From the NCBI GenBank assembly GCA_029204225.1, contig CM055095.1:26024503-26088502 (forward strand): 64,000 nucleotides of DNA, read 5' to 3'. This DNA comes from Diphasiastrum complanatum. Its lineage: Eukaryota > Streptophyta > Lycopodiopsida > Lycopodiales > Lycopodiaceae. The notes beneath the pieces were generated by a model. That model was not told the origin of the DNA and searched no databases. It saw only the letters and a program-made list of their open reading frames with translations. The position numbers and the translations under genes were made by a program. Below are positions 2,803 to 43,666 of this stretch, in pieces (positions within the stretch are counted from its first letter, which is position 1; every line of letters begins with the position of its first letter).

Positions 2803-5589
2803 AAGAAGACGAAGAAGAAGAAGAAGAGAAAAAAAATCAGTAAATGGTGGATCAGTATGGATGGAAACAGAACATAAATGGATTTAACAGATGAGCATGA
2901 TGAAAGTTATATAGTTAAGAGAAGATAGAAGATGGAAGATGGAATAGAGATGGAACAGAAAAGTGATGGTTGGTGACGGATGTGGATGGTAATTTATAAC
3001 TGGAGATCGAATTAAAAGAAAAAACTATACTCAAGCATCTATAGACCATAAACTATAGTAGAATAGCATCCACTAGATAAATAAAATAATGTCTGTGAGA
3101 TCCATAGGTTCTCAAAAAAAAATACTAGAGTAGAGAGATTCAAAAACACTGATTCGAATTCTTACTCAACAAAAGAATCCAAAATCGTACTTAATCATTC
3201 ACAAGATACTGGAGTATATGTTCCACATAACTCAGGAAAAGTAAGAATCATTCCAAAATCTTTCCACCAAGAAAATATTGGATTTAGGAATATTCTTCAA
3301 ACATGATTCTTTAACCGAAGTGCAGGATTCAAGGTTTATTAACCACTGGTAATTAAAGACTGAACGCATACCAAAATGACAATCATCTTCAACTACAAAA
3401 ACTTTAGATTACAATCTAGAATCAAATCTAGATACCCAAAGTCCTGCTGAATATCAATTCAGATATTATTCTTAGATTCATTATGATTTGTTATCCAATT
3501 GAGCGCAATCACTAATGAGTTGAGTCTAATCCTTAACTAAGGAATACTCTATCCCAAGAATACTGTATATCCAATGCACACAATTTTAACTGATGAACCC
3601 AAATGATTCACTAATCATGCGTCTTACAAGCAATATAATTCAAAATCATTAGTTCCTAGTGAATCCACATCACACTGATCGTTTTACCAATTAACTTCAT
3701 CTTGGAGTAATCAACTACTTTAAAGCTGTTGACATGATCAATCATCGATTCATTTTCTAACCTTCATAGTGAGAAGAACTTTTTACATAGAGATAATTTA
3801 GCAAAAATATCTCTAACATCGTAGAGAGATGTGTTCAAAATGTCTCATACTTATATGGAAGTTTGGGCTTTGCTTACATGACCAAGCAATGAAAAGATTA
3901 GTAAATCAAAGTCTTTTCCATCCTTTACTTTCAACTTGATGAGTGATCGCTAATCTATTAAAGGTTTTTCCTTCATTTTTTTATGACTTCCCATAACTCT
4001 TTAGCCAATATGATGACTCTCATTCTGAACCTTCACATGGTAGTGACTTCCATCCAGTTTGTAGATCATCAATACTGTAACACTGGAGGAATCCATTTGT
4101 GTATAATATTGACAAATAGAATAATGAATGAAATGCTGTCACTAGCTATTCTCAATTTGAAACGATTCAAGCAATCTATTAAGGTTCAAGCTTGGGACCA
4201 TGAATATGATGTACTTAAGGGACTCACTCTGAGTAGGAAAATTTTAATACCCTATTCTAAATGATTAGATATATATAACTACATATTAGTTCTAAATTTT
4301 TATAATTTTTTTCTCAAATTGACTATCATGCTAACAATACTATAATCAGATGAGCAAGATAGCTAGATCTTTGTGGTAGACTTGTTTGAGCATGAGAGTT
4401 CACTCTCTTGCTTGGGAGTAGATCAACTCTTATTGTACATTATTTTTGGAGCATGAGAGGAGATCATCTCTTATCCTTTGATGCACATTATTCTTTGAGT
4501 TGTTGATATACATGTGGAAGCAAAACAAAAACTAAAAACAATGGGTAAAATGCTAACATGACTTGCATATCAAAAATTGATTAAATACAAAGCAAGGAAG
4601 TAGCACATGGTGAAAGACATAGCCACCACTCCAATTCATTCAGCAGCAGCCTTGTGGAGATAGCTATGGTGATAGCGACTGACGATGCCGATGGTGGTGC
4701 AAGAGCGAGTCTGCGTGCAGGCGAGGGGGGTCAGGAATATAAGAAGTCCAAGCTGTTTCTGCATGACAGCCAGAGCACGAAGAGAGGGACCCAATCTTCA
4801 TCCTTTTTCTCTTTTTGCTGCTGATATGCACAATGTTTCATTATCAATTGTTAAGTATGGATTTGTATCCTTCCTCTCTTTTGCCTGCAACATCTGCATT
4901 CCACTCTTCCACACCACAGGTGACAGTACCAATCCTGCTTTCTTTCTGACCTGGCCCTCCTTTTCTCTTTGGCTTGCACATGCTTCTTCAGTTTTGCAGT
5001 ACACCACCATCACCTGTACAGCACTCTAAAAGGTCAGAAACGGGTACAGTATGTAGCTTCTGTTTCTGCCTAACTGACACCTGCTGTTATATGTCGGATC
5101 AGCCGTGCTTGTAAGGCAAGCTTTGTAGCTATGTCGGCGCTCTTGTTAAATTATAAGCCTCGAAAAGCAATTGGCTGCGTCTCACGGTGCGCCTACTGAA
5201 GAACTCATCTAAAATGGAGCAATTTAAAGAGTAGATATCTAGCAAAAGAGTATGACGGAGCTGGATTTCTATGTCTTTTTCGTTTCTTATATGCATAGCA
5301 TTCCTGAAGAGTGTGAAGCTCAAGTATTTGTGATATAGAAGGCAAGCACAAAGAGCTAAATTTATTTAGATACAGAAGCTGGGTTGATCGCCAGTTTGAA
5401 AGGATATATCGATCTGTGATCACTAAAAGCTAGCGCTGATGATAAGAGGGGAAGAATCGATTGATTTGGGAAGGTTATCGTTAGTTAATTTGCACCTACC
5501 ATAGATCGGATCTGCTCCCACACCGGACAATTCGTTACTTCCTGTGTGGAAGCAGTGCGGCTGCGGCTGCTAATCTTGTTTTCGTTTTG
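2803..5589. other. Intergenic, with presumed upstream region of the RRM gene
   Basis: Starts with a short GAA-rich tract (about 2803-2830), then AT-rich DNA with no convincing coding frame. An open frame at 4685-5029 (+) has no recognisable domain and looks fortuitous. The last few hundred bases should include the promoter and 5' UTR of the gene starting at 5590. I could not fix a TATA box. Confidence 0.5.
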
Positions 5590-12224: not shown

Positions 12225-13294
12225 TTTGACAAATCAAGGGAGAATATGAGTATGAAAATTGCGAAGTTTGATTTTTGCAAAGAAATAAGCTTTTGACAGT
12301 TTCTCCACCCATTTAAAACTCAGAGTTCTACGATAAGTGAAACTGAGAATGGCAGGAAGTTGTAGTTCATATACAATTGAGCACTTTTGCTTTTTACAAT
12401 GTTCAATTCCGAACCCAGACGAAGATGATATGAGGATCGAAAATACACCAATAAAATACAAGGAAGTTTGACTGAGGGTAAAAAAGGGTTTTGGAAAAAA
12501 TCTGAAAAGTAATAATTACAAATTTCAATAACCTAGCAGTGCCAGGCTCATCGTTCTGATCACTTTTTGTTTTTACACCACTGGAATTTGAGCTCAAACA
12601 AGAAAGTTATGGAAGTAATATCAAGTTAAGAGTTTTGTGCACTTGATATCAAACTCAAGCACACACAAAGTACTAGGACAAGAGCAGAGCAGAAAACACA
12701 CGCTCGAAATCGATATTGGAGAAAAAATATAAAAAATAAAAAATAAAGTTTCTTTTTTTTGGGTATCGGTTTCAAGCGCAAATAGGTTAGCCGAACTTTT
12801 TGAATAGTCCACCTGTGCTTGAAAGCGATATTGCCAAAAAAAAAAAAATGAAAAAAAATGACGTAAAAGGCTTACAAACCTTTCAAAATGAAGAAACTGA
12901 AAACAAATTTATAGCAAAAAGAAAAAATTGAAATTTTGAAGTGCTTCTCTCTCACCAAGAAACACACAGAAATTTTTTCAGAATTCTAGCAAATCTGACC
13001 CAGCTTCACTAATTTGATCATAACTCTCTCAATATTGATCCAAATCACACAAACTTAGTATTTATGAAAAGCTAAGAGCAAGCTCTATCAGCCTAGAATA
13101 TCAGATCAATGATTGAAGGTAATTTGATATGTCAAATTTACAACAAAACAGATTTGAAATTTTGAAGAAAGAAAACTAGTAAAACTAGAGCTAGAAATCA
13201 AGATTTGTCATAACTTTTTGAATACTAATCCAAATGACCTGAAATATGGATCAAATCAAAGCTAAGACAATGCTCTAAAAGAGTATGTAAAGAA
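12225..13294. other. AT-rich region with an internal duplication
   Basis: No gene. Two similar segments, about 13019-13110 and 13207-13292, both contain a 'tcataact...gatccaaat...aaagctaag' pattern, about 190 bp apart. They lie directly upstream of the copia pol remnant and may be part of its internal region. Confidence 0.4.
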
Positions 13295-15952
13295 ACTAGC
13301 ATAAAGGCAAAGAACATCCTGGATTTGATCCACACAGATTTATGCGGGCCTATGAGGACCATGTCCTTAGGTAAAGCCTTCTATTTCATGACCTTTATTG
13401 ATGATATGTCACGTAAGACGTGGATCTACTTGTTGAAGAAGAAATCGGATGCATTTGACAATTTCAAGAGCTTCAAAGCATTGGTCGAAAATCAGACAGG
13501 TAGGAAGTTCAAAGTACTAAGATCAGATAGTAGAGGTGAGTACAAGTCTAATGACTTCAATGATCTTTGTGATCAATGTGGGATTAAAAGACAATTTACG
13601 TAAGCTCATACTCCTGCTCTCAATGGTGTAGCTGAGCGCAAGAATCGTACGATTGTGAAAAGTGCCAGATCTATGCTAGCTGAGATGAAACTACCAAAAG
13701 ATTTTTGGTCAGAAGCATGCAATACGGCAGTCTATCTTCAAAATAGAAGTTCTACCATTGCCATACCAAAGATAACACCTGAGGAAGCATTCACGAAGAA
13801 GAAGCCAAAGGTGAACCACTTGCGAATCTTTGGATGTAAGGCCTTTGTACACATTCCTAAGGAAGAGAGACGTAAACTTGATGTAAAAGCTATCAAGTGT
13901 ATATTCCTAGGATATGATGATCGTGTGAAGGGCTATAGATGTTTTCATCCAGTGGAAAACAAAATCCATGTAAGCCGCGATGTTATCTTTGATGAATCCA
14001 AGATGTATGAAGACAAGGATGCTGAGAAAATAGATACATCCAGTGGGAAAGATGGTTTAGTGAGGATACCTCCTGATGATGATCCATTCATTGACCTTCC
14101 AAGTGATGAACATGAGGATACATCTCAACATACTACTACTCAATCCCAAGAAACAGGTTGAAGAGGTAGAGATAAACCTTTTGGTGCAAGAAGGATTGAA
14201 GTTGCAGGTGACAAACGTAAGGAGAAGGATGTACCGTGGGATACATTTTCACCAGGAAGCCGATCACTTGACAGGAAGCTCCCTAAGTGGTTTGAGAGAT
14301 TGTTGGAGAGCCGCGACATGGATGACTTTCCAGGATCATCTATCCAGGGAGAGCTACAAAAATCAACAAGAGAGAAAACACAACCTGAAAGGTATGAAGC
14401 AAATTATGCTCTCTTATCTAGCATTATTCAAAGCAAAGAACCTTCGACTTATGGTGAAGCGAAGGATGATGACATTTGGGTCAAGGCCATGGGAGAGGAG
14501 ATGGAGTCAATTGCTAAGCATAGCACATGGGACTTAGTAGACCCACCAGTGGGCAGGAAATCCATTGGTTGCAAATGGGTATACAAGACTAAGTATCATG
14601 TAGATGGAAGTATAGCAAAGCACAAGGCAAGATTGGTGATCAAAGGGTATGCACAAAGTAAAGGCATTAACTATGAGGAGACCTTTGCACCAATATGTAA
14701 ATGGAATACTCTACGTCTACTTGTTGCTTTAGCTTCACATTTTGGTTGGCCTTTGCATCAGATGGATGTGAAATTTGCTTTTCTAAATGGTGAGTTAGAA
14801 GAAGAGGTGTTCATGGATCAACTTGAAGGCTTTGTAACGAAGGGACAGGAAAATAAAATATTTCGCTTGAAGAAAGCGCTTTATGGTCTTAAACAGGCAC
14901 CACGTGTGTGGTATAGCAGGATTGATGCCTACTTTGGTTCAAAGGGCATGGTGAGAACACGTTCTGATCCAAATCTATATGTCTTATGCTTTGATAGTAT
15001 TGTTGCTTTGATTGCTCTTTATGTTGATGACTTGATTATTACGGGAAATAATCAAGAGATGATAGATATGATCAAGAAAGATCTCATGGAACAATTCGAG
15101 ATGACAGATCTCAGCTTGATGCATTACTGCCTTGGAGTAGAGGTGTGGCAAAAAGGACAAGAAGTGGGTTTAACACAGGTGAAGTATGTCAAAGAGTTGC
15201 TGCACAGGTTTAGGTTGCAGGATTGCAAACCAGTGAATACTCCCATTGAACCAAGTAAAAAGCTTTCTAAGCTTGATGAGTCACAGCCATTTGATGCTAC
15301 GCTGTACAGGCAGTTAGTAGGGAGCTTGATTTACCTTACCACGACTAGACCAGATATATGCTATGTTGTTGGCATTGTAAGTCAATTTATGGCAGCACCT
15401 ACGGAAATGCATTGGAAGGCAGCTAAACGCATTTTGCGTTATATGAAAGGCACTTTATATTATGGCTTGATTTACAAGAAGCATGATGGTTTACCTAAGT
15501 TGTGTGGCTATGTGGATGCGGATTGGGGAAGTGACTATGATGATCGTAGATCCACCACAGGGTATGTATTTCAATTTTGTGGTAGTTGCTTTTCTTGGTC
15601 TAGTAAGAAGCAAAGTACAATTGCTCTATCCACCACAGAAGCAGAGTATAAGGCAATGTGTAGTGCAGCACATGAAGCTATATGGTTGAGACAAATCTTG
15701 GAAGAAGTTGGCATGAAGCATCCCACGACATTACATAGCGACAGTTAGAGTGGCATTCAGCTAGCAAAGAATCTAGTGTTCCATGCGAGAACCAAACACA
15801 TTGAGATTCAATATCACTCTATATGTGAAAGGCTGTTGAGTCGTGAAATTCATGTTGTTCATTGTAGCATAGAAGAACAACTAGCTGATATTTTCACTAA
15901 GCCACCTGTTCTAACATATATATTGAAAGGAGATAGAGCTTTTGCTACCTGA
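13295..15952 (+). pseudogene. Ty1/copia pol remnant (integrase-RT-RNase H)
   Basis: One reading frame carries the copia order integrase, RT, RNase H. Integrase Asp residues lie in IHTDLCGPM and LRSDSRGEY, and the Glu in NGVAERKNRT. The RT has the FAPI block and the catalytic YVDDLIITG box (about 15020-15047). RNase H has CGYVDADW and STTEAEYKAM. Three in-frame stops break it: TAA 13601-13603, TGA 14159-14161 and TAG 15746-15748. The last replaces a Gln normally found in the DSQSA motif. No frameshift was found over 2.6 kb, so inactivation is by point mutation and fairly recent. Gag, protease, PPT and LTRs were not found. Confidence 0.92.
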
Positions 15953-15991
15953 CTCAATAGGTTTGTTAGCCACCTGGGGAACGAGCACTTT

Positions 15992-17155
15992 TTGGAGTTA
16001 ACGCGTGATCAACAAGTAAATTTTAATCTCAAAAGTGTAGGAAACAAGTTCTTGTCAGGTGAAATTAGTGTGATTTTTTTGTTGAATGCATTTCCTACAA
16101 ATACCGTTGAAGAAAAACAGGATCCTAGCATGAACGTCAGCGAAATGAAAGAGCAAGAAGCAGAAGAGAAATTAACACCCGTGAAGGAAGCAGAGCTTGC
16201 ACGACAGATGGCTTCAGTTGCATCAACATCTGCCCAATCGGAGGACATAGACGACTCCAATCACATGCTGCGAATACGTGACCTTGTCCCAGTGATAATT
16301 AATGGCAAGAGTATTTGTTTCTGCATGACTTGCAACATATCCTCGTCTTACGAGAGGATGAGATGTTGGCAAGATTAGTGAAATTGCAAATGGCACCAAC
16401 ACCTTTGACCACTCAGTGCCAGACGATACATTTCGACAGTTGATTGGAGATGACGCAGATACTACTGAGCAAGCTCTGGCAAAAATTTTGTGTGAACTGA
16501 AGACTTTGCAACCATCGGAGGTTGAGCCTAAACAATTTGGGAAATTACCGATTTCCACAACTGAGATGCCATATAGAGGCCATGGAATTGTGCTTGCAAA
16601 AATTGAGAATGAGGATGAAGGATCTCAGACAAGTTCTTTGTCAACAAATACTCTCATCCATGCTTGTTCCCATTTCTGAATCTATTCATTGTAATTATAA
16701 CATTCTTATATAATGTATTGCAGTATGCAATGGAGATTATCAGTTTTGCAATGAAGAGCGGAGGTTCTCGTGAGGACCGAACAGAGCGAAGGCCAGATGC
16801 ATCCCTGGCATACTACATTGGACAATTCCCTGACAACTATATCTTATGTTTCAGCAATGAGTATAGTCCTGATGGGCCCACTGAGCTGGTCAAGTGCAAA
16901 AGATTATCAAAGCATCTTGCAGATGCTCCACTTCCACAAACTGCACCAAAGGCCTACTGTGTACAAAGGAGTGCTATCTTGCAGGACTTCTGCCCAGGGT
17001 TTGAGCCTAGATTACTTTTGGCCTCAGCGGTTGGACCTTATGAGGAGCATGCTGATGCTGCTAAGTTAGCATTGGAGTTAATGAAGCCAACAGTAGGACT
17101 AGAAAATAGATCAGAGTCACTGCTGGAAGCACAGGCTAATGTAAAAGAATTTTAA
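15992..17155 (+). CDS. Uncharacterised coding stretch, probably multi-exon
   Basis: Not recognised. Three open segments follow each other: 15992-16378, 16416-16679 (different frame) and about 16725-17155. A good 3' splice site (TATTGCAG) ends at about 16723, just before the last segment, which supports a spliced gene. The first segment is Glu/Lys/Ala-rich. The last contains ASLAYYIGQFPDNYILCF and ends in a stop at 17153-17155. No zinc finger, protease or RT motif is visible, so it does not look like a retroelement. It converges with the H3-like gene on the other strand. It could be a host gene fragment or a captured gene. Exon borders other than the one named are uncertain. Confidence 0.35.
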
Positions 17156-17622: not shown

Positions 17623-18886
17623 TTAATTCCTCTCACGTCTCAGCCTCTTTGCCAACAACATGCCCTGTGGAAGTATAGTAACTCTCTTACAATGGACAGC
17701 ACACAAATATGAGTCTTCAAACAAATTTGTGAGATACATTTCTGCCGCCTCTTGGATAGCCGATGCAGCCTCGCTCGTAATTCTAACCCCAAGGGAGAAT
17801 TCGTCCATGATCTCCTTGATCGTCCGGACAAATGGAGCTCTCGGTATGAGGAATTCCATAGATATTTGGTATTTTCGAATCTCCTTATGCCAGTTCGGAA
17901 TTCGGCTCTTCCTTCGGCGACGTGGTTGCGGAGGCTACATCCTTCTGAAGACCTTGCCTTGCCAGGGTGGTGGCGGTGTGGCTGCCCTTCTCCGTGTTGT
18001 CGGCTGGCTAGGTCCCGTCTCATCTTGCATGGGAGGGTCCTGCGGGGGGTCCTGCAGCACCTCTGGTGCTGACTGATCTCGAGGCACCTGGGGAGCTTCC
18101 GGCTGCGGCTGTGCTTGAGGAATGGTCCGCGAAAGGCGTCGAGGCTTCGAGCGACCTCTCTTTCGATGAACACATTTAGATTTCAACCGTGATGTGGGTG
18201 TGACATGCTGAGAAGCCTCCCCAACGGCTTCTGCGTTTGGTGTCTGGTCCGAGCCGATGAGCAAGGACATCATGGGCCCCATTACAGGCCCTTACACATG
18301 TCCGAGTGATTGTGTCAAAGTGGAGTCCCCTGAAGCTGCTCTGACTCCTGATGAACCAACCGCAAAGCCATCAAGAGGGACTTGTTCCTAAGCACCCTGA
18401 TCGTCGAAGATCCCAAGGAAATCATTGGGAATCGGCCTGGAAAGCCTGAGTGGAGTCGCGCTGGCTCTATGTTGGAGAGGGGTTTCCCAGCACTGACCTC
18501 ACACCAAAATCATGCAGCAGGACATCATCTGTTGCTCTGGCTATATGCTGCTCATCCAAAGGTGTTTGTTGCTGCCCCTGCTCCTGCCCCTGCTCATCCA
18601 TTGTCGCTTGCTGCTGCCCAAGCTCCTCCATTGCCACTTGCTGCTGCCCCTGCTCCTGCCCCTGCACCTGCTCACAATCCATGGGAACTTGCCCAGGATC
18701 ATCCACTGCTACCTACTCATATTGAGTTCTGTCCATTTCCTCCGCCACAGGTTCAATGCTGCTACTTCTGCTCCTACTCCTACTCCTTGAGCGCCTTTCT
18801 CGTGCTTCTATTGCTTCTAAAGCGGCTTGGTGCAATAACGCTGTTTCCCTTGGATTCTGCCTTGCTGTTTGTTTCGTACGTGCCAT
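17623..18886 (-). pseudogene. Divergent histone H3 variant, H3-type tail and complete fold
   Basis: The ATG at 18886-18884 gives MARTKQTARQNPRETALL. The first eight residues after Met equal canonical H3, and Lys9 is Gln. An RS-repeat (RRSRSRSRSRSSS) and Q/E/G-rich repeats follow down to about 18480, then a basic P/Q-rich stretch. The C-terminal part (17925-17623) is a full H3 fold: KEIRKYQISMEFLIPRAPF (alphaN/alpha1), IQEAAEMYLTNLFED and LCAVHCKRVTILP (alpha2/loop 2), then the last helix, stop at 17623. Long tail, LIP motif and divergence recall centromeric H3 (CENH3), but loop 1 has the canonical H3 length. The GTVALREI region is replaced by IPNWHKEI. Lesions: TAG 18714-18716, a frame change near 18470, TAG 18388-18390, TAA 18292-18294, TAG 17935-17937. 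All are in the tail; the fold is clean. It is either a pseudogene or a gene with unplaced introns. Confidence 0.8.
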
Positions 18887-19345: not shown

Positions 19346-20697
19346 TCATAGTTCATGTATTTTTACAGTGACCGAATCTAAAAATGATGTGCACTTTTGG
19401 TGTTTTTCCGCGCGCCACCTGATCTGCAAAACCAGACACTACCATTTCAATATTAAAATTCATTTTATATATGTGTTCAACAACCATTTACAAAATTTAG
19501 AAGCACGTTTATTGTTTACACTTACGGTTTGTCCGTTGATAGTGAACACAAAATTTGTGGGCACATCAGTATATATTAAACCAACCATAGCCCGTGCATC
19601 TTCCAGACTCCATTCACCATTAACACAGACTTCCCGCACTTCATCATTTGGCATATGGATGGGTAGTTCAAATTCTTGATGTCTCGTCTCTACATCCAAG
19701 CTATCCTGTCGACCGTGAGCAAACTTGAATTGCCTATAAACGAAACTGAAGGAGCACGTTTGCCGTGCAATGTGATATCTTATTGTCACCGTCTCACGAC
19801 AAATATCACACCTATTAAATCACCTTTGTGATCTACATTCCGTGAGTCCCAAGAAGTAAATACATTGTCCAACAATGAGGATTCCGTTGCTTTCCATATC
19901 CATAATGTATGTGTTTTACTAAATGGTATTGTTTTAAATATGGCAACAAATACAGCGACAGACACACTGGCACTAGTGTAAACACGTTTGGATCCGAATG
20001 TTGGCTTCATATTCATCGTAATCTCTTTGACGAGTTGGAATTTTGTCAATTCAATGGTCAATTCATCAACATAAGGCCAATTGTGAGAATCGATTGTAGG
20101 CTAAGAAAGAGGCAATAATTTGCCAGTTCCAAAGTTTTCCTTTGGAACTTCATACATGTGATCGTAAAAGTAAACACCCAGTCCTATGATTGCAGAAGAC
20201 TTGAGCCCATCATATATTAGTACTCCATATTTTGCATGTATTGTAGAGAAATTTCCCGTAAACGATTTTACATGCTGCCAGTCATAGCTATCTGAAGGAA
20301 AAACATATGCACAAGAGGTATTAGAATGAAGCAACAATAATTTACAAGTAAAATATCTTTGACATTCAAAGATGTAAGACTTACAATGCGAAAGTATATT
20401 TCTATCAGCAACTGCCGTGTCCAACAAAATATCTCTACGCACGTAGACGTGTTGCACTCTGGCTAGGTAATCTCCGTTGCAATCGACTTTGAATTCGTGA
20501 ATTCTTCCTCTCCAATGGTGCTCTTTGTTGTCACGTTTTCTCTTTGCAACCCTATGAATTCCTTTACTAGAGGGTTGCATATATACCCAATCAAGAGTCA
20601 AAAATGTCGTAGGCACCCAATGGTCATTGGAGTCTTTGATTGGTGCAACAACGGAGTTTAATTGAATCTTTGTTCTTCTTGGTTGACTAGAAGTCAT
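19346..20697 (-). CDS. BAH-like domain protein (gene or pseudogene)
   Basis: ATG at 20697-20695. The first exon runs to 20385 and ends at a strong donor (GTAAGT); the 93-bp intron ends at 20292 (TTTTTCCTTCAG). Joining these exons gives a BAH-like pattern: WRGRIHEFKVDCNGDYLARV, then VYVRRDI, then ILSHY...W..VKSFTGNF, compared with the family's I..I.....G...V...W.YR..D....E..LS.H.D.V....I.G...V. BAH domains bind nucleosomes and histone tails. A TAG at 20101-20103 follows, itself a good splice acceptor (CCTCTTTCTTAG). More coding sequence continues to about 19815, where a frame change or small intron is needed. A later exon ends at 19526 with GTAAGT, and the last exon would be 19423-19346. The two middle junctions are unresolved. 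The gene lies upstream of the H3-like gene on the same strand. Confidence 0.45.
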
Positions 20698-20859: not shown

Positions 20860-21163
20860 TGAATATTTTGAACGAGTAGATAAACTAGCCATTAGGTGCA
20901 GGTATGTTGGGTCTAGTTAATAGCTATGTGATAGGTGTAGTTAGCCTCCCATGTAGAGTTAATGTAGGGTTAATGCTAGAGGTGTACTTAGTGGTCCCAC
21001 ACTTGATTTAATCTACACCATGCAATTTGCCATGTCATATGGGCCATTGATGCTCAATTGTCATTCTTTTATTGGCACATGTGTCGTCACTAACACTAAT
21101 CATGATTAGTGAAGAGGCCCTTTTTGAGTCCAAAAAGGGCCCTAATGATGTTCTAGTTAAATC
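20858..21163. other. No gene seen
   Basis: AT-rich spacer between the (GA)n tract and a copia-derived 3' end. Confidence 0.5.
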
Positions 21164-24327: not shown

Positions 24328-27300
24328 ATGGTTTCAGTTGAAGAACAACTAGATCTGGAGGATACAACTTGCGGGTCATTGCTAAGGGAGCTGCAGGTAC
24401 CTTTTGTACTTTGTTCTCCATTGATATCTGTGCTGTTTCTCGTGAATGCATTTACATATAGAGAACTGTATTAATTCTGATTGCAATTTAGTGCATCCCG
24501 AACTCTGATTTTGGGATATGCTTGCATTTCCTTTTCCAGCTTTCCATCCATTTGGGTTGTGCTTGAATGCCCCTTTCCAGCTTTTCATCCATTTTGGGCT
24601 ATGCTTCACTCCCCCTTTCCAACTTTCCATACATTTTGGGCTATGGTAAATCCTCTTTTCCAGCTTTTCATTCATTTTGGCTGTGGTAAGATCACCCTTT
24701 CCAGCTTTCCATTCATTTTGGCTGTGGTAAAATCATCCTTTCCAGCTTTCCATCCATTTGCGCTATGTTAGGCATGTCCGGCTTTCCATCCATTTGCCCT
24801 ATGCTAGAACCGGCCCAGTTTTCCATCCAGATTTATTTGAGCTATGGTAGAATGGTCCTTTCCAGCTTTCCATTCCTTTCTAGTGTTCCACATATGGAGT
24901 ATAAACCTAGAGCACTTAGAAAAGCCTTGTTCTGCATAATCAGAGATCATTAGAAACCATTGTCTACTAGTAATAATTTTTAGCTTACAAACCATCTGCA
25001 ATCACTGAGTTTCTTTGTCTGTTGTTTACTACAAAATTTGGATTCTGATCTGGGAACGCAATCTGAATGTGATATCTTTATGGCCGTGGACTAGTCAGAT
25101 ACTGTAATGTTGCCCCTCATCATCCCAAGGAACAACACATGCTGACATCTTTCTGGCCCGCGTGGCAAGCATTGATCTCTTAAAATCTGAATAGCTTGCT
25201 GTTAATATTAGTTGGTAAACTGCTCACCAGCAATTGATAGACAGTTCTATTGTTAAATGGTTCACTGATCCAAAACTGATCTTTAAGTAAAATTTTACTG
25301 CGGAGCCTGCCAGTCAGAACCACTTTTCATTGAGAAACATGTTCACGTTAAAGTTTTGAAAACATCATCATTACTAGCCAAATGATCCACCTTAGACTTT
25401 CTATAAGCCAATGGCTGATGACTCACTTGGCATCTGTAAGGTCCGTAGGTGTATTCTGGCCATTGGATGGTAGAATTTTTAATCTATGAAGAAGACTCAA
25501 TTTATGCATCCCCAAAATGCGCGGTTTGGGATAAGTTCTGGTGCTATGCACTTGCAGCAGTCGAACAAATCATGATCGAACATATACATGCTGAAATTGG
25601 ATTGAGAATGCAAGCTGTGCTTTACTTGAGTTGAAATAGCGATGCTAAGTCAAAGGGAGTCAAACAATAATATCCTTATTTCTTTGTTTCTGTCTTCCTC
25701 AGCACATATGGAATGAAATTGGAGAGAGCGACGAAGATAGGGATCGGATGTTACTGGAACTTGAGCAGGAATGTCTTCTAGTATATCGGCGTAAAGTTGA
25801 GAATGCAAGCCTGAATCGAGCTCGTCTGAATAGAGCTCTTGCAGATTCAAAAGCAGAAATAGCAACTCTGTCCTCAATTCTAGGAGACAGGCCTATCTAT
25901 TTGCACGTAAGTGTTATTTTAATGTTGAAGCTTTTGCAGCTAGGGCTTCTGTTGCATGAGATAGCCTTGCTATTCTCAGGGAAAGCAAGCAAGCTGCTGC
26001 ACTCGGCTGAATTTGTGTTAACCTGTTGTACAGTTGGATACACGAGGTGCCTCTTTGAAAGAACAGCTAAATGCTGTGGTTCCAGAACTGGAGGCATTAC
26101 GCAGCAAAAAAGAAGAGAGAGTGCAACAGGTCATGGAGATAAAAACAAAAATTCAGGAGATATCTGAAGAGCTGTTTGGTTCTGTGCAATGTGAGGATGC
26201 AACTGTTTCTGTTGCTGAACAAGATCTATACTCAAAGCAGATAGAAGATTATCGACTTCAGCTGCAGGCTTTGTTAGAAGAGAAGGTATTGTTTTTATTT
26301 TGATGGATTGCATGTCTTAAAACTGGAAATATTAGAACGCAGTCCATCAGAGTTTTTTGATTGTGGAGTTTAATTTTATGGGGTTTTCTTCTCAAGCTAT
26401 CCAATTAAATTTATATTGGACACTTTTTGCAGAGTGATCGAGTGCACAGGATCCTTGAAAATGTGAAAGAAGTTCATGATCTCTGCTTTGTATTAGGAGT
26501 GGATTTTTACAGAACAGCATCGAACGTGCATCCAAGTCTAGTTGAGTCAGCAAGTGGTCCTAAAAGCATCAGCAATGATACGTTGGAGCAACTGAAGCAT
26601 GCCCTCAAGTCTCTTCAGGAGGAAAAGAAACAGCGAATAGAAAAGGTAAAAGTGCAGAACAGCTGATTGGTTTTCAAGTGTGAAAATTGCAGGTGTCCTG
26701 TAAGTTACTTATGTTTGTCTGTTTTGCTACTAGCTAAGGGACATTGGTTCTATGCTGAGGGATTTATGGACTCTCATGGACACGCCAGAAGAGGAGCAAC
26801 AACTATTTCAGAACGTGACTTGTATGCTTGGAATAGCAGATTCTCAAGTCTCTGCTCCACGATCTCTTGCATCAGAAGTGCTTGAACAGGTCATGTGCTT
26901 GAAAGATATGTGAAGCATCAACTCTTTATCTCATCAACACTCTGATTCAACTCAATGATTTGGTTTTTCATGGCTAACATGCACCATTGCAAAGAGCAGC
27001 AATCTGCCAGGTCTATAAAAGTCGATATAGATTTTTGAAATCTGTTTAGTTGTCCAGGCAACAGCGGAACTAGAAAGGCTTGACCATCTTAAAACAAGCA
27101 AGCTTAAAGAACTTGTGCTGAAGAAAAGGTTGGAGTTAGAGGAGATTTGTAGGAATGCACACATGGAAGCAGATAGGACCACCTCACGAGATAAGACGGA
27201 TGCTCTTATCGACTCTGGTAGGCTGCCAATAAAAGAGAATTTTGAGTTTGTTAGGTTGTAGTCTGTCTCCTGCAATCTGAGATTTCTAACGTAAGGACTG

Positions 27301-28623
27301 CCCATGTCTGACTCGATTGTTTTAAACTTAAAAATTGCTTGAAGGTATGGCGGATCCCTCCACGCTTTTTGCAAATTTGGAGGAGCAGATAGCAAAGGCA
27401 AAGGATGAGGCCCTCAGCAGAAAGGAAGTTCTGGACAAGATAGAAAAATGGTTAGCAGCCTGTGAAGAAGAAACATGGCTTGAAGATTATAACAAGGTAA
27501 GATTAAGAATGGACTTAAAATTGTTCAGTAAGTCACAGGAACCCGAAACCCTAAAAGAAAAGCTGCTCATGTCTGTTGTAATTTTTATAAGAGCTCTATT
27601 GATTGATTATGGTCTCTCAAAAATATAATTTCTTGGGCTTTGCAGGATGAAAACCGTTACAATGCTGGCAGAGGTGCTCATGTGAATCTAAAACGTGCAG
27701 AGAAAGCTCGAGTAACTGTGCAGAAACTTCCTGGTATCCCTTGTGAATACGTATCTTCTAGTTTAGCCACGTTTTCACTGCATGAAATCAGTGTATACCT
27801 CCGTGTATAGGCTTTCTAAAGCAGAACACATATAAGCATTTCTTTGTGATAAAGTTACTCTGAGTTTGCTAAATGCAGCTCTTGTCGAGGCATTGACTGC
27901 AAGAGTAAAAGCTTGGGAAGAGGAAAAATGTACGCTCTTCCTTTATGATGGGGTAAGCCCACTCTTACTTCTTTATCCACCTGGTTCTTTGTTCTCAAAA
28001 TATTTTTTTCCTATGTTATAATCGAAATTTTCATGAAAAGAGATGATTTCTCTTGTACAAGGTCCATTTACTCTCTATGCTGGATGAGTACAATCTGCTA
28101 AGGCAAGAAAAAGAGGAGGAAAAAAGAAGACTTCGGGTAATCATGCCCAAACTTTTGATTTTCTTATCATGTTAAAAAACTAAAAGATAAAGTATTTCGT
28201 TGAGAAAGCTGGTAAGAGGACACAAGCCCAAACTAATGTGTTTTGTTACAGGACCAAAAACGGTTGCAGGAGCAACTGATCAATGAAAAGGAAACCTTAT
28301 TTGGCTCAAGACCAAGTCCCTACAAAGTGAAGATTGGCAAGAAAAGCCAAGCTGGGCTACGTGTTAATGGTAGCCAAGGAGGAACACCTGGAAATCGTCG
28401 TTTATCAGTTGTTGGAGCCCACCATCCAGGAACTCCAGATACTCTAATGCCAAGGGTAAATGGTGTGACACCAGCTAGGCTAGCCACATCTGTGGGCAAA
28501 GAATTGAAGAAGGATAAATCCAGGCCAGCAGCTCCAGTCAATTTTGTGGCAATGCCCAAGGAAGACTTTGGATCAATTTTTAGTGGATGTAGGCATGATG
28601 AGAATTCCCTACAGTTTGTTTAA
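24328..28623 (+). CDS. MAP65: MAP65/Ase1 microtubule-associated protein
   Basis: Predicted 604 residues from eleven exons: 24328-24396, 25703-25906, 26034-26285, 26433-26645, 26734-26889, 27058-27217, 27345-27496, 27646-27733, 27879-27952, 28062-28136, 28252-28623 (1815 nt, frame closed, all GT-AG). The N-terminal two thirds are heptad-rich coiled coil that dimerises in this family. The conserved microtubule-binding block is present: [18 protein letters not shown], then [20 protein letters not shown], then [14 protein letters not shown] and [18 protein letters not shown]. The Ser/Thr-Pro-rich tail has GTPGN, PGTPD and VTPAR sites, likely CDK or MAPK targets. MAP65 crosslinks antiparallel microtubules in the spindle midzone and phragmoplast and in cortical arrays. 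Intron 1 is 1.3 kb and carries a minisatellite. No lesion; length is normal for the family. Confidence 0.95.
24522..24895. repeat. 41-bp minisatellite in MAP65 intron 1
   Basis: Nine degenerate copies of a pyrimidine-rich unit (cctttccagctttccatcca + ttttgggctatgg...). The 'ccag' anchor occurs at 24536, 24577, 24619, 24660, 24701, 24742, 24778, 24815 and 24862. The first six copies are spaced 41-42 bp apart, the later ones 36-47 bp. Confidence 0.9.
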
Positions 28624-31330: not shown

Positions 31331-34300
31331 TTATTCATCATCTACATAAATTGTTTCCTGTTTAAAAAGGCCGCCAAAAATGTTGTTAAACTGGGGTTTT
31401 GGGTCAAACACTGATACTTTGGATGTGGAAGCAATTGCAGCAGCAGGTGGGTCTTTTGTTCCTTTTCTTGAAGCAGACAATCCTGAGATTGTTCTGCTTA
31501 AAAGCTTCCCGGCATGGTTGTCCTGCTGCGTATCCAGTAATGAATTACTGGGCACATTTGGACTATCTAAGGATGCTACTGCTTCTTGTGCTCTGGCCTT
31601 AGCCCTCTGTGCTACAGCAGCTGCCTTTGCTTCTTCTTCTGCTAATCTTTTTGCTTCTTGTTTGAGGTGATATGCAAGCTCAGCGGCTTTGCGCGCTTCT
31701 TCTAAGGCCTTCTGTGCTTCTCTTTCAGCTTGAGCACGGACTTCCCTTTCAGTTTCCTCAGCTTCTGCTTTGGCACGTAACTCTTGTAAAGCCACCCTCC
31801 TTCCATCTGTGGGTATAGCACTGTTACACATGATCACCAAAAAATTTGTCAAAAATGAGATTAGACTATAGTAATTTAATCTCTAATACAGCAACTCTGA
31901 CCAACCAAACATTTCAAAAGTAGTCCTTACTCCTATCAAACATATTTCAAGAACACAAACTTGAAAAAGTAAATAATCCCAAGTCAATTCAAATCAGATT
32001 GATTCACTTTTTTTGGCTAGAAATCAAATCAAGCATGAAAGGTTTTCAAAAAGAAATTTCAAAGAAAACAAGGAACACTTGAAAGGAAAAATCTCTTTAA
32101 ATCTCAGTTTGAATCTTAAGTTGATTCCAAAACTTCAAAACGGGCTTCTTTGCTTCTATGAAAAAAATAGATGCACAAGTAGTTGAACACAACTGTGAAA
32201 AAATGCAATGAACAAAGTTGAAGTACCTTAAAAGGACATCAATCGAAGTTACTGGGGCATAATCCCTTGTGGCAACTTCTACGACCTGCACAACAGAGAG
32301 ATTATATAAGCTTAACAGGTCTGCTGGACAAAAACGCTTTCCTGTTCATACATAAAATGTGAATTCTTTCAATCTAATTGTACCTTGATGTTGCAGAAGG
32401 CAACAACCATACACACACCTTGTTTTCTGAGACTGCTGTGTTTAGAAAAACTCCTGCCACAACTGATGCAATCTGTGCTTTTGAAACCTGTTTCAAATTA
32501 TAGAAAAAGTAAAATTTCCAGATCTGAACAGCAAGCTGACCTGTTCCACAACTTGAACTTCTGAGGTATCAAAGAAAAGCAAGCTTAACATCAGGGTCCT
32601 TCAAAGAGGACTACCTTGCCTCTGCCTGCATCGGGGATCCCCTCCGTTAGCAGCACAAGGTTTTCGGTTTCTAGGGAATAATCGTCAATGCCCTCAGTTG
32701 AACTTGTCCTGATAAATGTAAAAGTTAGATCACTCTCGACTATGCCATCAATGAGATCTTCTGTTGAAGCTTCCGAATCTTGAATAAACAAGTTTCTGAA
32801 AAAAGCTGAAATGCCTGCAAATGGTCCATCGTTGACTACCCCAGTCCCAGCTTCAGATACAACAACCAGATGGCCAACATTGGCTAGTTTGGCTGCTTCT
32901 ATAACACGCAACGCATCTGATGGTGTCACCTTCGCCCGAGGTCCATCCTCTGTTGGACCAACAGTGACAACAATCTTTCCAGCATTGCCAACTGCCTTCG
33001 CTATGGACTCTACATCCTTGAAGTCAAACTCAACTGCATTAAGTCTCCTCGCTTCGTCTTTGCTGATGAACTGAATCCCACAAGCAGCCGCTATGAAACG
33101 TCACATTTGTGTTATGTTTTGAGGTTTCAAAGATAAAATCCTTCGCTAAAAAAGAGAATGAAAAAATCAAAATCCTTCCCTACTGCACTTGATTGAGGCA
33201 TTAAGATAAGACATACAACCTTAGTCGAAAGTAAGAAAAGGTGAAACTTGGAGGTGCCAATCATAAATACATCGAAACCATAAACTGAATATGAAGTGTG
33301 ACTAATCTCAAAAAAGTAGCATAATTGATACTGGTTGATTTCCTACAGTAAAACATTCTGGCATTCGAAGATGGAAAAGTTTTCTAGTAAGATTCATCTC
33401 GAAAGTTTAGAGAACCCACTAACTGTTTGCTTTAGATAAATCTAGGAAGAATGTAATGTGGATTGAAGGCCACAAAGGCCTATCTCGCCTTAAGTTCAGG
33501 TTAGTGAGGGTCAGAGAAATGAGTTAGAATTTAAACTTGTCAGGCAAATGTGGTTCTAAGCCTATAAGGGCAAGATCTCAAGAAAATGCATTCTATGATT
33601 TGTATCCATTCCATTTTTTGTTAACTAAACCATTGACCTATTGATCATTCCCTTGACTCCTAGAGAGTTGCCAAGTTCGGATTAGCTCTCCAACCCTCTT
33701 CATGTTGGTAGTGCCTTTGTTCCGGACTTGCACTCTAAGTTTTGCATCTTAATTGCCTCATTTTCATCACTCATATGCAAATGGCGATGAAAGTATGATT
33801 CTTACAATCAACAGATATCTGAGCTTGAATATGATGTAAGGTGTACAGTGGATTAAACAGTAGCAACAATAGATAAGAGGTTGCAAACACATAGCAATGT
33901 AGGATCCTGCATCGGAATCTACCAAGAAGGGAGAAGTTGCATTGCCAAGCTTTGAAAGTTACAATGAATGTTTTATTGTATTTCAAAATGAGCTTGATTG
34001 CAGACTCAGTTGAGCAATAAGTAATTGATTAAGAAAAGAGGCTGAAAAAAAAATGAAATTGAAAAGAAAAATGGACTAATGGAATGTTACACTCCAGTTG
34101 GCATTTTAATTTCCTAACACAGAGAGAAAGTTTCTGAAATCAGAACTCCCTTTATGATAGTAAGAAAAAACAATTTCAGTGAAGTTCTGGCAAAATTGGA
34201 ATGGGAATCGCGAAGAAAAGGACAAGGAAACTAACCCCATATTGTGCAGCAAACTCTGCAAGCTGCTGCGCGAAGTAGAGATCGCGCACACCCCCCCGCA

Positions 34301-34883
34301 CACTGAACCCATTTCGCAGCAGCTGTTGAGAAATCCGGGCACCAATCTGGCCTGTTGCTCCAGCAACAAACACTGTTCTGGGATCAGTCCTTCTAAGCCT
34401 CCCCAATGACACGCTTTCCAAGCCACTGGGGTCTTTCTTCAGCACCAGAGAGCTGCCTCCACTTGATAAACCGCCACTCTGGGTGGAGCCACCTCTCCTT
34501 GTTGCAAACTTGAGCAATTGTGTGCCAAAAGGTGGTTCCTCATCCTCCTCTTCCTCATGTTCCTCTTCATTTTCCCGCTTTTTCTCCCTGTTTTCAAATC
34601 GGAAGTGCTGGGTTCCTCCTAAAGCAGGCTTGGTGTCATTTTTCTTCTTCCGTCCTGCACTAAAAGACTGGGTTCCTGACCTTTTAACCGGGGATCCAGC
34701 TCTGATAAACATGCTCTTGTGCCTGCCATCACACATATGTGGCAACTGTGCTGCAAACAATTTACTATAAGAAAGCAAAAGTGCTTTGCTGCTGCTATAG
34801 ACAGGATGATCTAGAACAGTAACAGTCCCAGTATGTTTCACACCCTGCAGAGCCTGCAGAGATACTACCGTATTTGTTGGCAT
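31331..34883 (-). CDS. PTAC16: pTAC16-like NAD(P)-binding Rossmann protein, plastid
   Basis: Predicted 573 residues from five exons on the - strand: 34883-34236, 33070-32615, 32487-32419, 32285-32227, 31820-31331 (1722 nt, frame closed, GT-AG). Residues 1 to about 160 are a Ser/Arg/Lys-rich leader with an acidic Glu run, compatible with a plastid transit peptide plus linker. The Rossmann motif is TVFVAGATGQIGARI, followed by conserved stretches EARRLNAVEFDFKDVESIAK and KIVVTVGPTEDGP. The C-terminus is a long Ala/Glu/Arg-rich helix ending in FGGLFKQETIYVDDE, very like the end of Arabidopsis pTAC16. In that species the protein belongs to the plastid transcriptionally active chromosome and thylakoid fraction. 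A TIC62-type NAD(P)-binding protein is the alternative, but TIC62 ends in FNR-binding Pro-rich repeats, absent here. No lesion. Confidence 0.85.
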
Positions 34884-36477
34884 TGCTGCCAGGGAAAATG
34901 CAGGCCTGTTGATGCGCTTCCTGTCTTCAATCTAAAGACTGCACCCAATAGCCTGATTAAGAATCACACACACACTTTCACTTGGTCCCACAGCGATGCA
35001 TGAGAGGCATTAGATGGAGCTCCAATTGAATTGTTTGAGACATCAAACACTGTTGTCTTAACCAATTGCTCATCCATTCTGCAATTTCTGATCTACCAGC
35101 AGCACAAAGGCATGGCTGTGGAGGAAAGCACAGTTTTCTGTGAGCAAGCAACTCAATTTTATGATCTGACACAGTTTTTTTTGGTGAAGCAAGGAGTAAC
35201 AGAAGATGGGCTGCTGCTGCCAAAGGCAAAGGCGAAGGGGAGGGCGATCGCCATAGCCAGGACCTTGGAGAGGAGACGTCGATCGTATGATCGATCCCCT
35301 TCTGTTATTGGAACGCATGCTATTTTAGCCTGTTGCCGTTGGATCTACAGAGGTCATTCAGATTTTGCCACGCTTCTGAGGCCCATAACTTGCCAAGTGG
35401 CAAATGCACACGTGGCCCACATCCAGCGAGGAGGCTGCGAATTTAGATAGTGTCCTAAGAAATACTTAAGAGATCAGGTCAGGTCAAGGTTTAGGGTGTA
35501 TTTATATGTTACCCTAAATGATGATAAATATATCTATAATTTTGGATATCATCATTTATAATTATATTCTTTTTCTCGCGTCATTTCTATATCATTTAGA
35601 GCTTGGATGGATGATTCAGGTTCTTTTAAAACCTCAAAATCGCATATGGGTTCATCATATGTAGTGGGCCTTGAGCGAGCGAGCTTGCACAAGCGAGCTT
35701 CTGAGTGAACTTTTCACCATTGCATTTATTAAATTTTCTCTAGTATCTATCTTTATCTCTGTCATTTTTGTGCAGATTTTCTCTAAATCCATACTCTTAT
35801 ATGTTGATGGTGTGGTTATATTCATACTAAATATTTCGTAAATCTTCCATTTTTTGGACTTTTCCAAAAGCTTTTAATTGAGAGTCATCAAAAACAATAT
35901 CAATAAGCAACATCTAAGTGGCAATAAGAGAAATATGCATCATAATAAATATGCATGCACTTACTCATAAATAAATAAATATGCATTATAATAAACATGC
36001 ATGCACTTACAAGATAAATATATTTATATCTATTTGTGCCTATGACCAAGCAAGTTTGGTATGATATCCATGCTCTTAGAAGATAAATACATTTACCTTT
36101 AACTCTGCATATTGCCAGATCACTTTAGTATTTTGCATTATGCATGCACAAAGAGAAGCCACTGTCCTATTCACTTTAGAACATTCAAGCATATGGAGCT
36201 AAAATGTTAGTACAATATTCCAAAACATAAAATAAAACAAGAACGATGTGGTATTAACCACAAAGGCCTTGCCATGTCATAATAGCATGAATTCTAAAAT
36301 TTTAGGATTTGGATTGTTTCATATTTGAATTAGGCTTGTCGGTGTTTTTTTCAAAATAGCATGTGTATAGATGGTTGTTTTCTTTTTTCAACAAAAGTGT
36401 TTATTTGATGCTTATTATTTTAACTTAACATCTAGGGTGTTTGAACTTTTTGCAGGTTGGATGAGGAGTCGGAGTGA
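34884..36477. other. Upstream region of pTAC16-like gene, no other gene
   Basis: 34884-35100 should contain its promoter and 5' UTR. Beyond 35450 the DNA is AT-rich with short repeats such as 'ataaatatgcat' (35930-36010). Confidence 0.5.
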
Positions 36478-38117: not shown

Positions 38118-41058
38118 AAATTACTCTTGATAGAGTGAGGTGCTCTTGGGTAGAAATCATCAATGTCTCTCCTAAGCATCTCCAGAGCATTGGCTTCCCT
38201 AATCTCGGAGAGACAATCCATGGCAAGGGCACCAGCTATGATGCCAAGTACTTTACAAAGTTTCTGACAGAGGACAACAAGACCATTGTCCAAACCAACG
38301 ACGGGATCGCCATACGCCTTATCACAGATCCCCATCTACGGGTCGCCTCAGAAATCTCGTCACCATGGTCGAAGTGCACACTACCAAGATGGATCGCATT
38401 CCACCAAGCGACCTCTTCTCTTTGACCCTCACCATGGATGATCCCACTCAACACTACAAGTGGGCTGAGAAGGTAGCAGAAAAGTTGTGCGGGGCCTTGA
38501 AAGCCAGAAAACCAACTACCAAGTGTGGATATCTCCTCCACATGTTGGTCACCAACCAGTTGGGGTCTAAGGCAGCTGCTGCCATCAAGGAGCTGGATGA
38601 TCTCTATCCAAGCACTAAGAAGCGAGCCACCCCCCAACCAACAGCAGAACCAGTCTCACCAGTCCCATCCACTAAGAAGCAGAAGGGGAAGGTGATCAGC
38701 ACAGAAGCTGATGTCTCTCACAACCTTCTATCCAGCGACATCGGGATTGAATATGCTGAATCCGGAGGGAGCCTTAAACCCTCTCAAGTCCCAAAGGAGG
38801 TCCTAGAGTAGCAGGAGGCTTTACTCCACCAAGTCCAACAATGTAGACAAGTAGTAGCGGTAGCAGCAGGCAACTCGGTGGCGGCAGACACTTCTGGTTC
38901 TGATCCTATGGGCATGGTTTCGTCCACATAGACAACCTCCATAACCCCAACTTCCTCACTTGCTCTCACACTCCCACCACCACCTCCACCATTTACTACC
39001 ACCTCCACACCATCACTAACTCTCAACATGGGCTTCGCTTCCACAATTTCACAAAAGTCCTCACCTGTACAAATCTCCACCCTACTTGACTCTACAGTCA
39101 ACATAGATGATTTTGCATTACAATTACTAACCGCACTTCCATCAACCACCATCACCACTAACCCAATCCACACATCTCCACCACGCAATATCTCCTCACC
39201 TCTTTCACCCATCAATCCTCAATCACATCCACCTACCTTTCATCCATCTCCATCTAACCCTGCTCCTGATTTTCTACCCTTTAACCCAATGTCGTATCCT
39301 AACTACACACGCATCCTCTCTGACATTTTTCCTTGGGAGCAATTACTCCTTGCAGCCCAAAAAGTGGTATGGTTGGTAAATGAGCTCCAATACAATCTAT
39401 TCGGCACCCTAGGGGGACAATATATTATGCGACAATTTGACGATTGTACCTTCAGAAAGAAAAAGCAAGGCTGGAGGAGGAAAACAAACAACAACAACTG
39501 CACATTTAGAACCTCACCAATTATAATCAACAACAGCAGCAGATGCTACTCCACCTCCAGAACCAGCTCCAACTGAAGGTATCCAACATGCAGCATACCA
39601 TCGATAACCTCAAAGCCGAAAGGGGTGAGGCTATAGCAGATGCACAAGCCACATGTTCCGCTATGAAGGAACAGTTGGAATTGGTGGACTTCAACGACTT
39701 CATACCACCAGCTATTCCTGAGGGAACTGCCATTCCAGTGGTGGCCTATTAAACGCTGGCCCAAAAGTTGAAAGCCATGATGGAGCAGCACACAAAATTA
39801 CAACAATCATACCTTGCTTTTGTCAAGGCCCTAAACCAGCACATTTCCACCCTGGAAGAATGATTAAAGACAGATGTCCAATCAACATCGTCTGTTCATG
39901 CAGAGCATGCCCAATTCCATGATTTAGGGCACCACTTTGATGGACCAGATGGTGGAGATGGAGCAGGATTCCAGCAGCCTCCTCCTGTTACTCAAGGCTC
40001 CTCATTTCAAGGCCAACCCCTGGGGCAAGGAGCTCAAACACCAACCAATTCATCAGGCTCTAGGGGTACCAGCTCCCAACATTATCTTTTTTCTTCCACC
40101 GCTTCTAACTCTCTCGACACCACTAACCCCCCATTTATTTCACGACAATTTTCTCCTGGGTCACAAAGAATTGCTGAAGCTAACCCCTCGCCTCCTCTCT
40201 CTCCTGAACTTGATCCCCAAATTCAACATGAGATTGCCTCTGAAGCACCAACCATCCGGCACAGAATCACGCCCATAGAACCAAGCAAGAAGTTGCGTGC
40301 CTCTCAGGAGTTTGCCAAGAAATATCCAACGACAAAAGAGTGAGGTGGCTACATATTGCCAAATTTGGACCAGAGTCAAACACATAAAGAAGCAGTCAAA
40401 CTTCTGGATCCACAACCTCTCTGGCGCCATCAGCTCTTCCTACAAAGTAAGACCTCAATGGCACGGTATATCGAAGCTCCCTCCTACATGCGCACAAATC
40501 CTTATTACTATCCAGTAGCGAGGTGAGAACAGTTTCTTGCCACCAAGGTCAAGAATAGGATATTTTGGCCCAAGCTCACAGGTGTCGATACCGACAACTT
40601 AGCCGAAGACATGGTCACCAACTACCGAGTATTCCACCAGAAGCACCATGGCAATCCTGATCGCGACGTCAGATATTTTGCGGATAATTGCGACCTGGTA
40701 GCATTTCTGGCAGAACTCAAGGGTTTTTGGGATCGAGGGCTACCCCCAATCGCCCTTGATATCAATAAACCACTGCGAACGCAAGACGACCATATCAGCG
40801 TAGCAACGCTCTATTATTGCGCTGCACTAACTTCCGCCGCACATGTTGATATGGTGGAGCTATGGAAAACCCATAACTTTCTACAGGGTATGCTCCATTA
40901 TTACAAATCCATGCCCTTCCTGAACAAACTACGGTGACAAATGATGGAGGGCATTAGCACTACAATCTACCACTCCCGACAGCAACAGTCTCGCCTCCAA
41001 GAAGCACAAAAGATCCAGGACGAAAAGGCTTCGATTGGTGTGGGACCACCAATCCAAT
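38118..41058 (+). mobile_element. Gag-only LTR element, copy A (body)
   Basis: A coding-like stretch with stops ends directly before a PPT and LTR start. Recognisable blocks: SIGFPNLGETIHGKGTSYDA (38190-38250); a folded-looking domain with KWAEKVAEKLCGAL and KCGYLLHMLVTNQLGSKAAA (38460-38590); a P/T/S-rich linker; a coiled coil LQNQLQLKVSNMQHTIDNLK (39550-39610) followed by VDFNDFIPPAIPEGTAIPV; and a C-terminal domain with GFWDRGLPPIALDI and VATLYYCAALTSA (40710-40840). None matches a protease, RT, RNase H or integrase, and no zinc knuckle is present. Stops include TAA 39749-39751 and TGA 40342-40344. The same blocks recur at 44488-46440 and 56115-57479, and more distantly at 46441-47661. I infer a non-autonomous LTR retrotransposon whose only gene is a long Gag-like protein. 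Confidence 0.6.
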
Positions 41059-43513: not shown

Positions 43514-43666
43514 TAGGTACGAGCAACCAAAGGTGATATCATGAAAGAGTTCGTCTACAATACCAAAATCCCTATGTCGCTGCTAGTGGAAAACTGGAGA
43601 CGGTCGATCGTTGTAGTACTGATTTCCCTTCTAATTGTCCCATCGTTGTCCTGCACATCGATTAAT

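Follow-up and report, generated by a model that had tools for sequence, protein, structure and literature searches.

The H3-like histone gene in a 64-kb stretch of Diphasiastrum complanatum DNA (the whole stretch analyzed is called the window below) belongs to a DNA transposon with several genes that has multiplied in this species and of which the copy seen here has decayed. The histone is a regular gene of this element and not a recent passenger: several divergent lineages carry it, and it shows signs of selection. As a whole, the observations are best explained by a transposon that carries its own H3, the lack of Lys9 in which would serve an anti-silencing role; we assign a probability of roughly 0.55 to this reading.

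Histone gene copy in the window

The histone gene of the window was delimited as follows:

17623..18886, minus strand: broken H3-like histone gene, with an ATG at 18886 and a terminal TAA at 17625-17623, collinear with the frame of the relative L009
17623..17934, minus strand: uninterrupted histone-fold part, 103 aa (Pfam Histone, 97 bits, 1.2e-27)

The N-terminal read-through from 18886 (MARTKQTARQNPRETALLHQAALEAIEARERRSRSRSRSRS...) opens with MARTKQTAR followed by Q, that is, the eight residues after the methionine are those of H3 and position 9 is occupied by Gln in place of Lys. It continues through Q/E-rich and P-rich parts into the H3 fold and ends with RRERN and a stop. A previous reading of the sequence alone had described a highly divergent, long-tailed H3 variant without Lys9, and this description holds: the RS repeats, the Q/E repeats and the P/Q-rich part of the tail are all present, the tail ahead of the fold spans about 330 residues by read-through, the window-type histone contains the LIP motif, loop 1 aligns with that of ordinary H3 without any difference in length, and the H3 fold is complete. 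The best PDB H3 chain matched the fold with 92 bits; together, the Pfam and PDB scores rule out chance by a wide margin.

The window copy is not a working gene. In-frame stops begin at 18715 (TAG), 18390 (TAG), 18294 (TAA) and 17937 (TAG), and a single frame change lies between about 18501 and 18417. With these interruptions, what remains in the window is a dead relic of the gene. Splicing is not needed to explain the broken frame and was rejected, because L009 (on contig C156) encodes the same protein layout in a single uninterrupted frame. L009, an intact copy elsewhere in the genome, comprises 412 aa from the methionine, in the order MARTKQTARDPRVTALLH...RERRESRSRSRSRS..., Q/E part, poly-P, H3 fold and RRERN. 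The window read-through follows the same order along its length; with the low-complexity filter off, two parts of the alignment show 42% and 41% identity. The aligned stretch of the window contains no intron. The closest database match to the window fold, with 83% identity, was a D. complanatum protein (P0001), which is probably another copy within the same genome rather than an orthologue. When the full-length histone was used as query, low-complexity words swamped the search of the protein database, which returned one animal H3-type protein, one weak match and no plant relative.

A repeat family with divergent histone lineages

The genome was searched for the histone family, and 150 of 6,325 candidates were scored. 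Thirteen of these places are canonical H3 (E about 1e-45), and the other 137 score like element copies. Nearly all of the non-canonical rows among the matches listed have E values between 1e-28 and 1e-24, and open frames of 290-417 codons are common among them; the last three rows, at about 1e-20, include host H3.3 exons (two were read). Of 20 flanked copies selected for long open frames, 12 loci make up group A and 8 loci group B (L028 being a distant member), and each group shares several kb past the histone. The aligned stretches of A-type copies are about 90-99% alike among themselves. Compared with A, the window copy shows a similarity of 65-79% (about 72% on the gene X side); together with P0001, it forms a separate subtype W in the trees. 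When up to 3 mismatches are allowed, a 36-base segment of the A-type histone has 194 genome matches, against none for the reversed control, and with the L009 histone gene as DNA query, all 40 scored of 532 candidates showed 91-100% identity. The histone copies are spread over many large contigs.

The B-type histone is organized differently from the window type: a short start (MDRRKQTRRDFF) is followed by the fold and then by about 200 more residues. Six of seven B-type copies lack an in-frame stop; among the A-type copies aligned to L009, the same is true for three of 12, and nine have in-frame stops (frameshifts not counted). ORFs supplied the sequences of two further lineages, D (L054) and E (L055), and lineage C (L033) has a broken tail. 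Altogether, the H3 fold is still encoded by six divergent lineages (A, W, B, C, D and E), with a tail of about 300 residues in A and W and a C-terminal extension of about 200 residues in B and E. The suggestion that the window gene represents an undescribed H3 class is upheld for a transposon-encoded class and fails for a host H3 class, the window gene being a dead copy within a DNA transposon family.

Ends and genes of the element

The histone gene of the window is accompanied by the following features:

21111..21147, minus strand: outer end, terminal inverted repeat (minus strand CATTAGGGCCCTTTTTGG...), matching another copy's opposite end at 97%
19529..20697, minus strand: gene X, broken (tblastn of subtype-A X pieces, 60-71% identity; stop at about 20103, frame change at about 19800)
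15908..17152, plus strand: gene Y, broken and with its 5' end cut off (46-74% identity to subtype-A Y pieces by tblastn, the matches lying in more than one frame)
13238..15916, plus strand: copia-type retroelement coding sequence abutting the element (ORFs; copia by eye)

A-type copies start with CATTAGGGCCCTTTTTGGACTCAAAAAGGGCC, and the window copy carries the same end at 21147. In a 32-base form this end has 1,950 genome matches (979 and 971) at up to 3 mismatches, and its reversed control has none. Among the 100 matches listed, six end pairs were fetched, five of which face inward at distances of 1-11 kb; the sixth does not and was dropped. In one of the five, C3:64723712-64735091 (11.4 kb), the inward-facing ends enclose a histone match at 64729458. 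CATTAG...CTAATG is present on both ends of five A-type pairs, which had been picked by that end sequence; independently of such a choice, the B-type right ends carry CTCTAATG in all five cases read. The flanks were compared by eye for the five inward-facing pairs and L015: two to three bases are common to both ends in three of the six (AAT, TC, and CA for L015), and one or none in the other three. An 8 bp target site duplication was found at none of the six.

The similarity of the window to A-type copies ends at 15917, where the copy is cut by the copia sequence. Neither the transposase gene nor the second terminal repeat of the window copy was found within the 64-kb window (tblastn with four transposase relatives). 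In A (L023 with L031), X and the histone are followed by Y and then the transposase gene, both of which lie on the opposite strand. The order in B (L026 with L030, L018 with L029) is transposase, Y-type gene (other strand), histone and X (other strand). Gene X is common to the window, A and B, with a subtype B match of 28-31% and E values down to 3e-26. In D, a Y-type gene adjoins the histone, with 27% identity to that of B over 121 aa (1e-12). The A-type Y has no significant alignment for Y in the B element, and therefore the B gene is called Y-type by its position and by the match to D only. A BAH domain in gene X, an idea by eye, was discarded after a Pfam search, a PDB profile search and a single-sequence fold had given nothing usable. 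Gene X of B matched a TnsA N-terminal model weakly, with 18.5 bits and thus below the cut-off of 26.5.

Several other observations were made at these loci. Facing terminal repeats 1.1 kb apart at C1:67871296-67872435 are likely to be a short non-autonomous derivative. Just 3' of the A-type histone, several A copies contain a palindrome-like inverted repeat of about 137 bases (5425-5561 in the reverse complement of L015, and equivalents), which could possibly form a hairpin. Window positions 38193-38544 and 56304-56500 share 66-70% identity with DNA that lies immediately beyond the right end of the C15 A-type copy (L023/L031); this DNA is probably a repeat unrelated to the element. Judged by eye, the window also contains ORFs like parts of a MAP65/PRC1-type microtubule protein (25649-28623, plus strand; likely a host gene near the element), ORFs like an NAD(P)-binding, TIC62-like plastid protein (31331-34931, minus strand; likely a host gene), and ORFs like a Penelope-like or similar reverse transcriptase (42491-43582, minus strand).

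Transposase

The core of the element transposase is predicted to be RAG1/Transib-like, as modeled for one transposase relative. No Pfam family recognizes the protein. In the element A1 the motif order is KLDE, DLKT, CIYC, HFCTMH, and all four strict motif patterns of these types occur in 16 of 27 transposase relatives. A candidate third catalytic Glu lies in a QGME motif in three of the 27, most of the others apparently ending before it, in a region that is poorly modeled. An endogenous virus was considered and rejected, as the transposase alignment has no relative in IMG/VR.

The CMCT group comprises EnSpm/CACTA, Mirage, Chapaev, Transib, Plavaka, ESTA and Lanisha, and RAG1 derives from Transib; hallmarks of the group are C(2)C and H(3-4)H between the second Asp and the last Glu and a target site duplication of 2-5 bp (PMC12730594). 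The element has in common with this group the CA...TG termini in inverted orientation, the C-x2-C and H-x4-H motifs after the second Asp, and the RAG1/Transib-like predicted fold. It differs in that its transposase lacks a Pfam family and in its histone cargo, which is unmentioned for CMCT in the available parts of that source.

In the fern Adiantum nelumboides, two gene models contain related stretches (P0051/P0050): one combines a transposase stretch, an H3-like fold and a weakly Ulp1-protease-like end, and the other combines transporter and transposase stretches. The occurrence of a histone-bearing element in ferns depends on one such gene model, which may be a fusion error.

Lys4, Lys9 and the proposed anti-silencing role

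Lys9 is absent in all 19 element histone starts, some of which are duplicated stretches (L013/L014, L015/L021, L019/L020), and is present in all eight host H3 loci. In its place, A-type starts have Asp (7) or Gly (2), B-type starts have Asp (6), and the single starts of lineages C, W, D and E have Glu, Gln, Pro and Leu, respectively. Lys4 is present in 10 of 10 starts that came from ORFs not filtered for its motif; the remaining Lys4-positive starts came from a search with the Lys4 motif as a filter. A-type copies (L009, L010, L013-L016, L019-L021) have an in-frame ATG four codons upstream (MSEE-MARTKQTAR), which, if used, would mask the N-terminus that resembles H3. The absence of Lys9 may go back to one ancestral loss with subsequent drift, as little of the tail is conserved.

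Plants silence transposons by H3K9me2 and non-CG methylation. Under the proposed mechanism, the element would make an H3 that could still pair with H4 through its fold. The tail of this H3 retains the KQT motif with Lys4, with Asp, Glu, Gln, Gly, Pro or Leu replacing Lys9. If deposited on or near the element, this H3 would form nucleosomes unable to carry H3K9 methylation, and the element would thereby stay transcribable long enough to transpose. That a Lys9-less, Lys4-bearing H3 lets element chromatin escape the silencing mark is a tentative proposal from sequence features, to which we give somewhat less than even odds.

Histone class and possible roles other than anti-silencing

A single branch of a 20-row tree separates the nine element histones from the other rows with a support of 76/80, which is not strong; the element histones form the groups A+W+C (86/87) and B+D+E (85/85). 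In a 30-row tree, A+W was recovered with 92/89 and C joined them with 88/75, and B was not joined to them; the fern row forms a very long branch in this tree and was left out of the 20-row tree. A placement of the element histones with host H3, apart from the CENH3-type rows, was rejected (p-AU 0.013, post hoc test), in agreement with the expectation that the window fold does not lie inside ordinary H3.1/H3.3. None of the ORFs behind the nine element rows contains the RPGTVAL entry; RPGTVALREI is a feature of ordinary H3.1/H3.3. The A and W folds keep the equivalents of Cys110, His113, Lys115 and Arg116 of H3.

CENH3 characteristically has a LIP motif in its first fold helix. This motif occurs in Arabidopsis CENH3 and in A, W, B, D and E, that is, in five of the six lineages (C has LLL), and MPR/LPR variants are found in other divergent H3s. 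Because of this motif and of the longer loop 1 and the RW of lineage E, it is possible that the element histones derive from a CENH3-like ancestor. The element histones also share with plant CENH3 the MARTK start and a divergent tail. With a histone of centromeric descent, either the transposase or the whole element might be guided to centromeric chromatin, or CENH3 loading might be used, for safe insertion and persistence. We regard this role as unlikely. It is consistent with the LIP motif, with loop 1 of E, which is 4 residues longer than in H3 (Arabidopsis CENH3, +2) and ends with RW as in Arabidopsis CENH3, with the RW of D, and with the best tree, in which the element histones and four CENH3-type rows lie on one side. 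However, the support for this placement is weak (71/59), and of the CENH3-type rows, only Arabidopsis CENH3 is a known one, P0003, P0011 and P0013 having been assigned by our reading; the host CENH3 is not among the rows and was not recovered among the 150 scored places of the 6,325 histone-family candidates. Furthermore, loop 1 has the H3 length in the window, A, C and D (B, +1 residue), and the element histones are transposon-borne and multicopy, unlike plant CENH3. A survey of plant H3 genes describes H3.1, H3.3, CENH3 and heterogeneous H3-like genes (PMC4357034), and centromere drive is treated elsewhere (PMC11687628).

Alternatively, the histone might act together with X and Y in packaging or bending element DNA for the RAG-like transposase. 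The joint occurrence of histone, X, Y-type gene and transposase in A and B, and the Y-type gene beside the histone in D, would fit such a structural role. Yet neither X nor Y belongs to a family that is recognizable in Pfam/profile searches, and the single-sequence structure model of X failed (pLDDT 31). We consider this role, too, improbable.

Selection on the element genes

Selection was assessed with Nei-Gojobori estimates, pairs with a dS below 0.15 being classed as near. For the B-type histone, dN/dS is 0.27 in far pairs (10 pairs) and 0.88 in near pairs (11 pairs); the copies had been chosen from strong histone matches with long frames, which lowers dN and affects the contrast between near and far pairs less. 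The A-type histone has near pairs only, with 0.46 (66 pairs), and a run limited to ORFs gave overall values of 0.61 for A and 0.38 for B, with single near pairs up to 1.4. The near pairs are thus not uniformly neutral, because those of A are already at 0.46, or at 0.61 when limited to ORFs. The wrong-frame control (+1 frame of B) yielded 0.61 for 17 near pairs and has no far pairs to set beside them. Between the window and L009, pS is 0.93 and pN 0.20 across the 103 fold codons. For near pairs of the other B genes, the values are 0.34 and 0.72 (transposase exons), 0.46 (X), and 0.47 and 0.58 (Y-type exons), with 0.31 for the far pairs (6 pairs) of one of them.

These values bear on passive transduplication, by which a captured histone gene would be a functionless passenger. 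Capture of H3 by fungal hAT elements is known, and in one fungal species every one of the hundreds of copies is inactivated (PMC3538342, PMC6710886); damaged copies are also frequent here, as illustrated by the in-frame stops in nine of 12 A-type copies, and the near-pair ratios reach about 1. Nevertheless, the ratio of the far B pairs, the excess of synonymous differences between the window and L009, and the retention of the H3 fold in six divergent lineages argue against a passenger, and we judge this explanation very unlikely. An ordinary processed pseudogene, whether derived from host H3.1/H3.3 or from an H3 variant of the host, to which the intronless aligned stretch with its stops and frame change would conform, is refuted by the repeated multi-gene structure with terminal repeats, by the intact relative and by the lack of grouping with host H3, and its probability is negligible.

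Relation to known systems and significance

H3-like genes in hAT elements have been described in fungi, as H3L in Pyrenophora tritici-repentis, which fits neither H3 nor CENH3 fully (PMC3538342), and in Pseudocercospora fijiensis and five related genomes (PMC6710886). These elements are the nearest precedent: in both cases, an H3-like gene lies between terminal inverted repeats and has been multiplied to tens or hundreds of copies. The element described here differs in its transposase, which is RAG1/Transib-like by predicted fold, and in its lycophyte host, with a sign in a fern. In addition, it has a long tail (A/W) or a C-terminal extension (B, E) on the histone, two further genes, and divergent lineages with signs of purifying selection in which Lys4 is kept and Lys9 lost; none of its six end pairs examined shows the 8 bp target site duplication of the fungal hAT elements. 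Among the open-access papers listed in literature searches, only the fungal cases and no transposon-encoded histone of plants came up.

The anti-silencing protein of the Vandal family is named VANC. Anti-silencing genes of transposons include this MuDR protein, TET/JBP dioxygenases of fungal DNA transposons and SET genes of oomycete elements (PMC12730594). The putative function of the element histone would share with them the idea of a transposon gene that acts on host epigenetic silencing. The known genes encode sequence-specific regulators or enzymes, whereas the element would contribute a component of the nucleosome itself.

In its most far-reaching form, the preferred reading of a transposon with its own Lys9-less H3 would imply an old RAG1-related family of seedless vascular plants, present as at least six lineages that differ in their tails in one genome and also in ferns, that places a CENH3-derived, K4-competent, K9-null histone on its nucleosomes as an anti-silencing weapon; we consider the conjunction of all these elements doubtful. 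The finding adds a RAG/Transib-like lineage in seedless plants. Transposon-borne enzymes and DNA-binding factors that counter silencing are known, and a K9-less histone would, if the proposal is true, be a direct counter-move in the chromatin arms race. A natural K9-null H3 would then offer a way to test what H3K9 contributes to the control of transposons.
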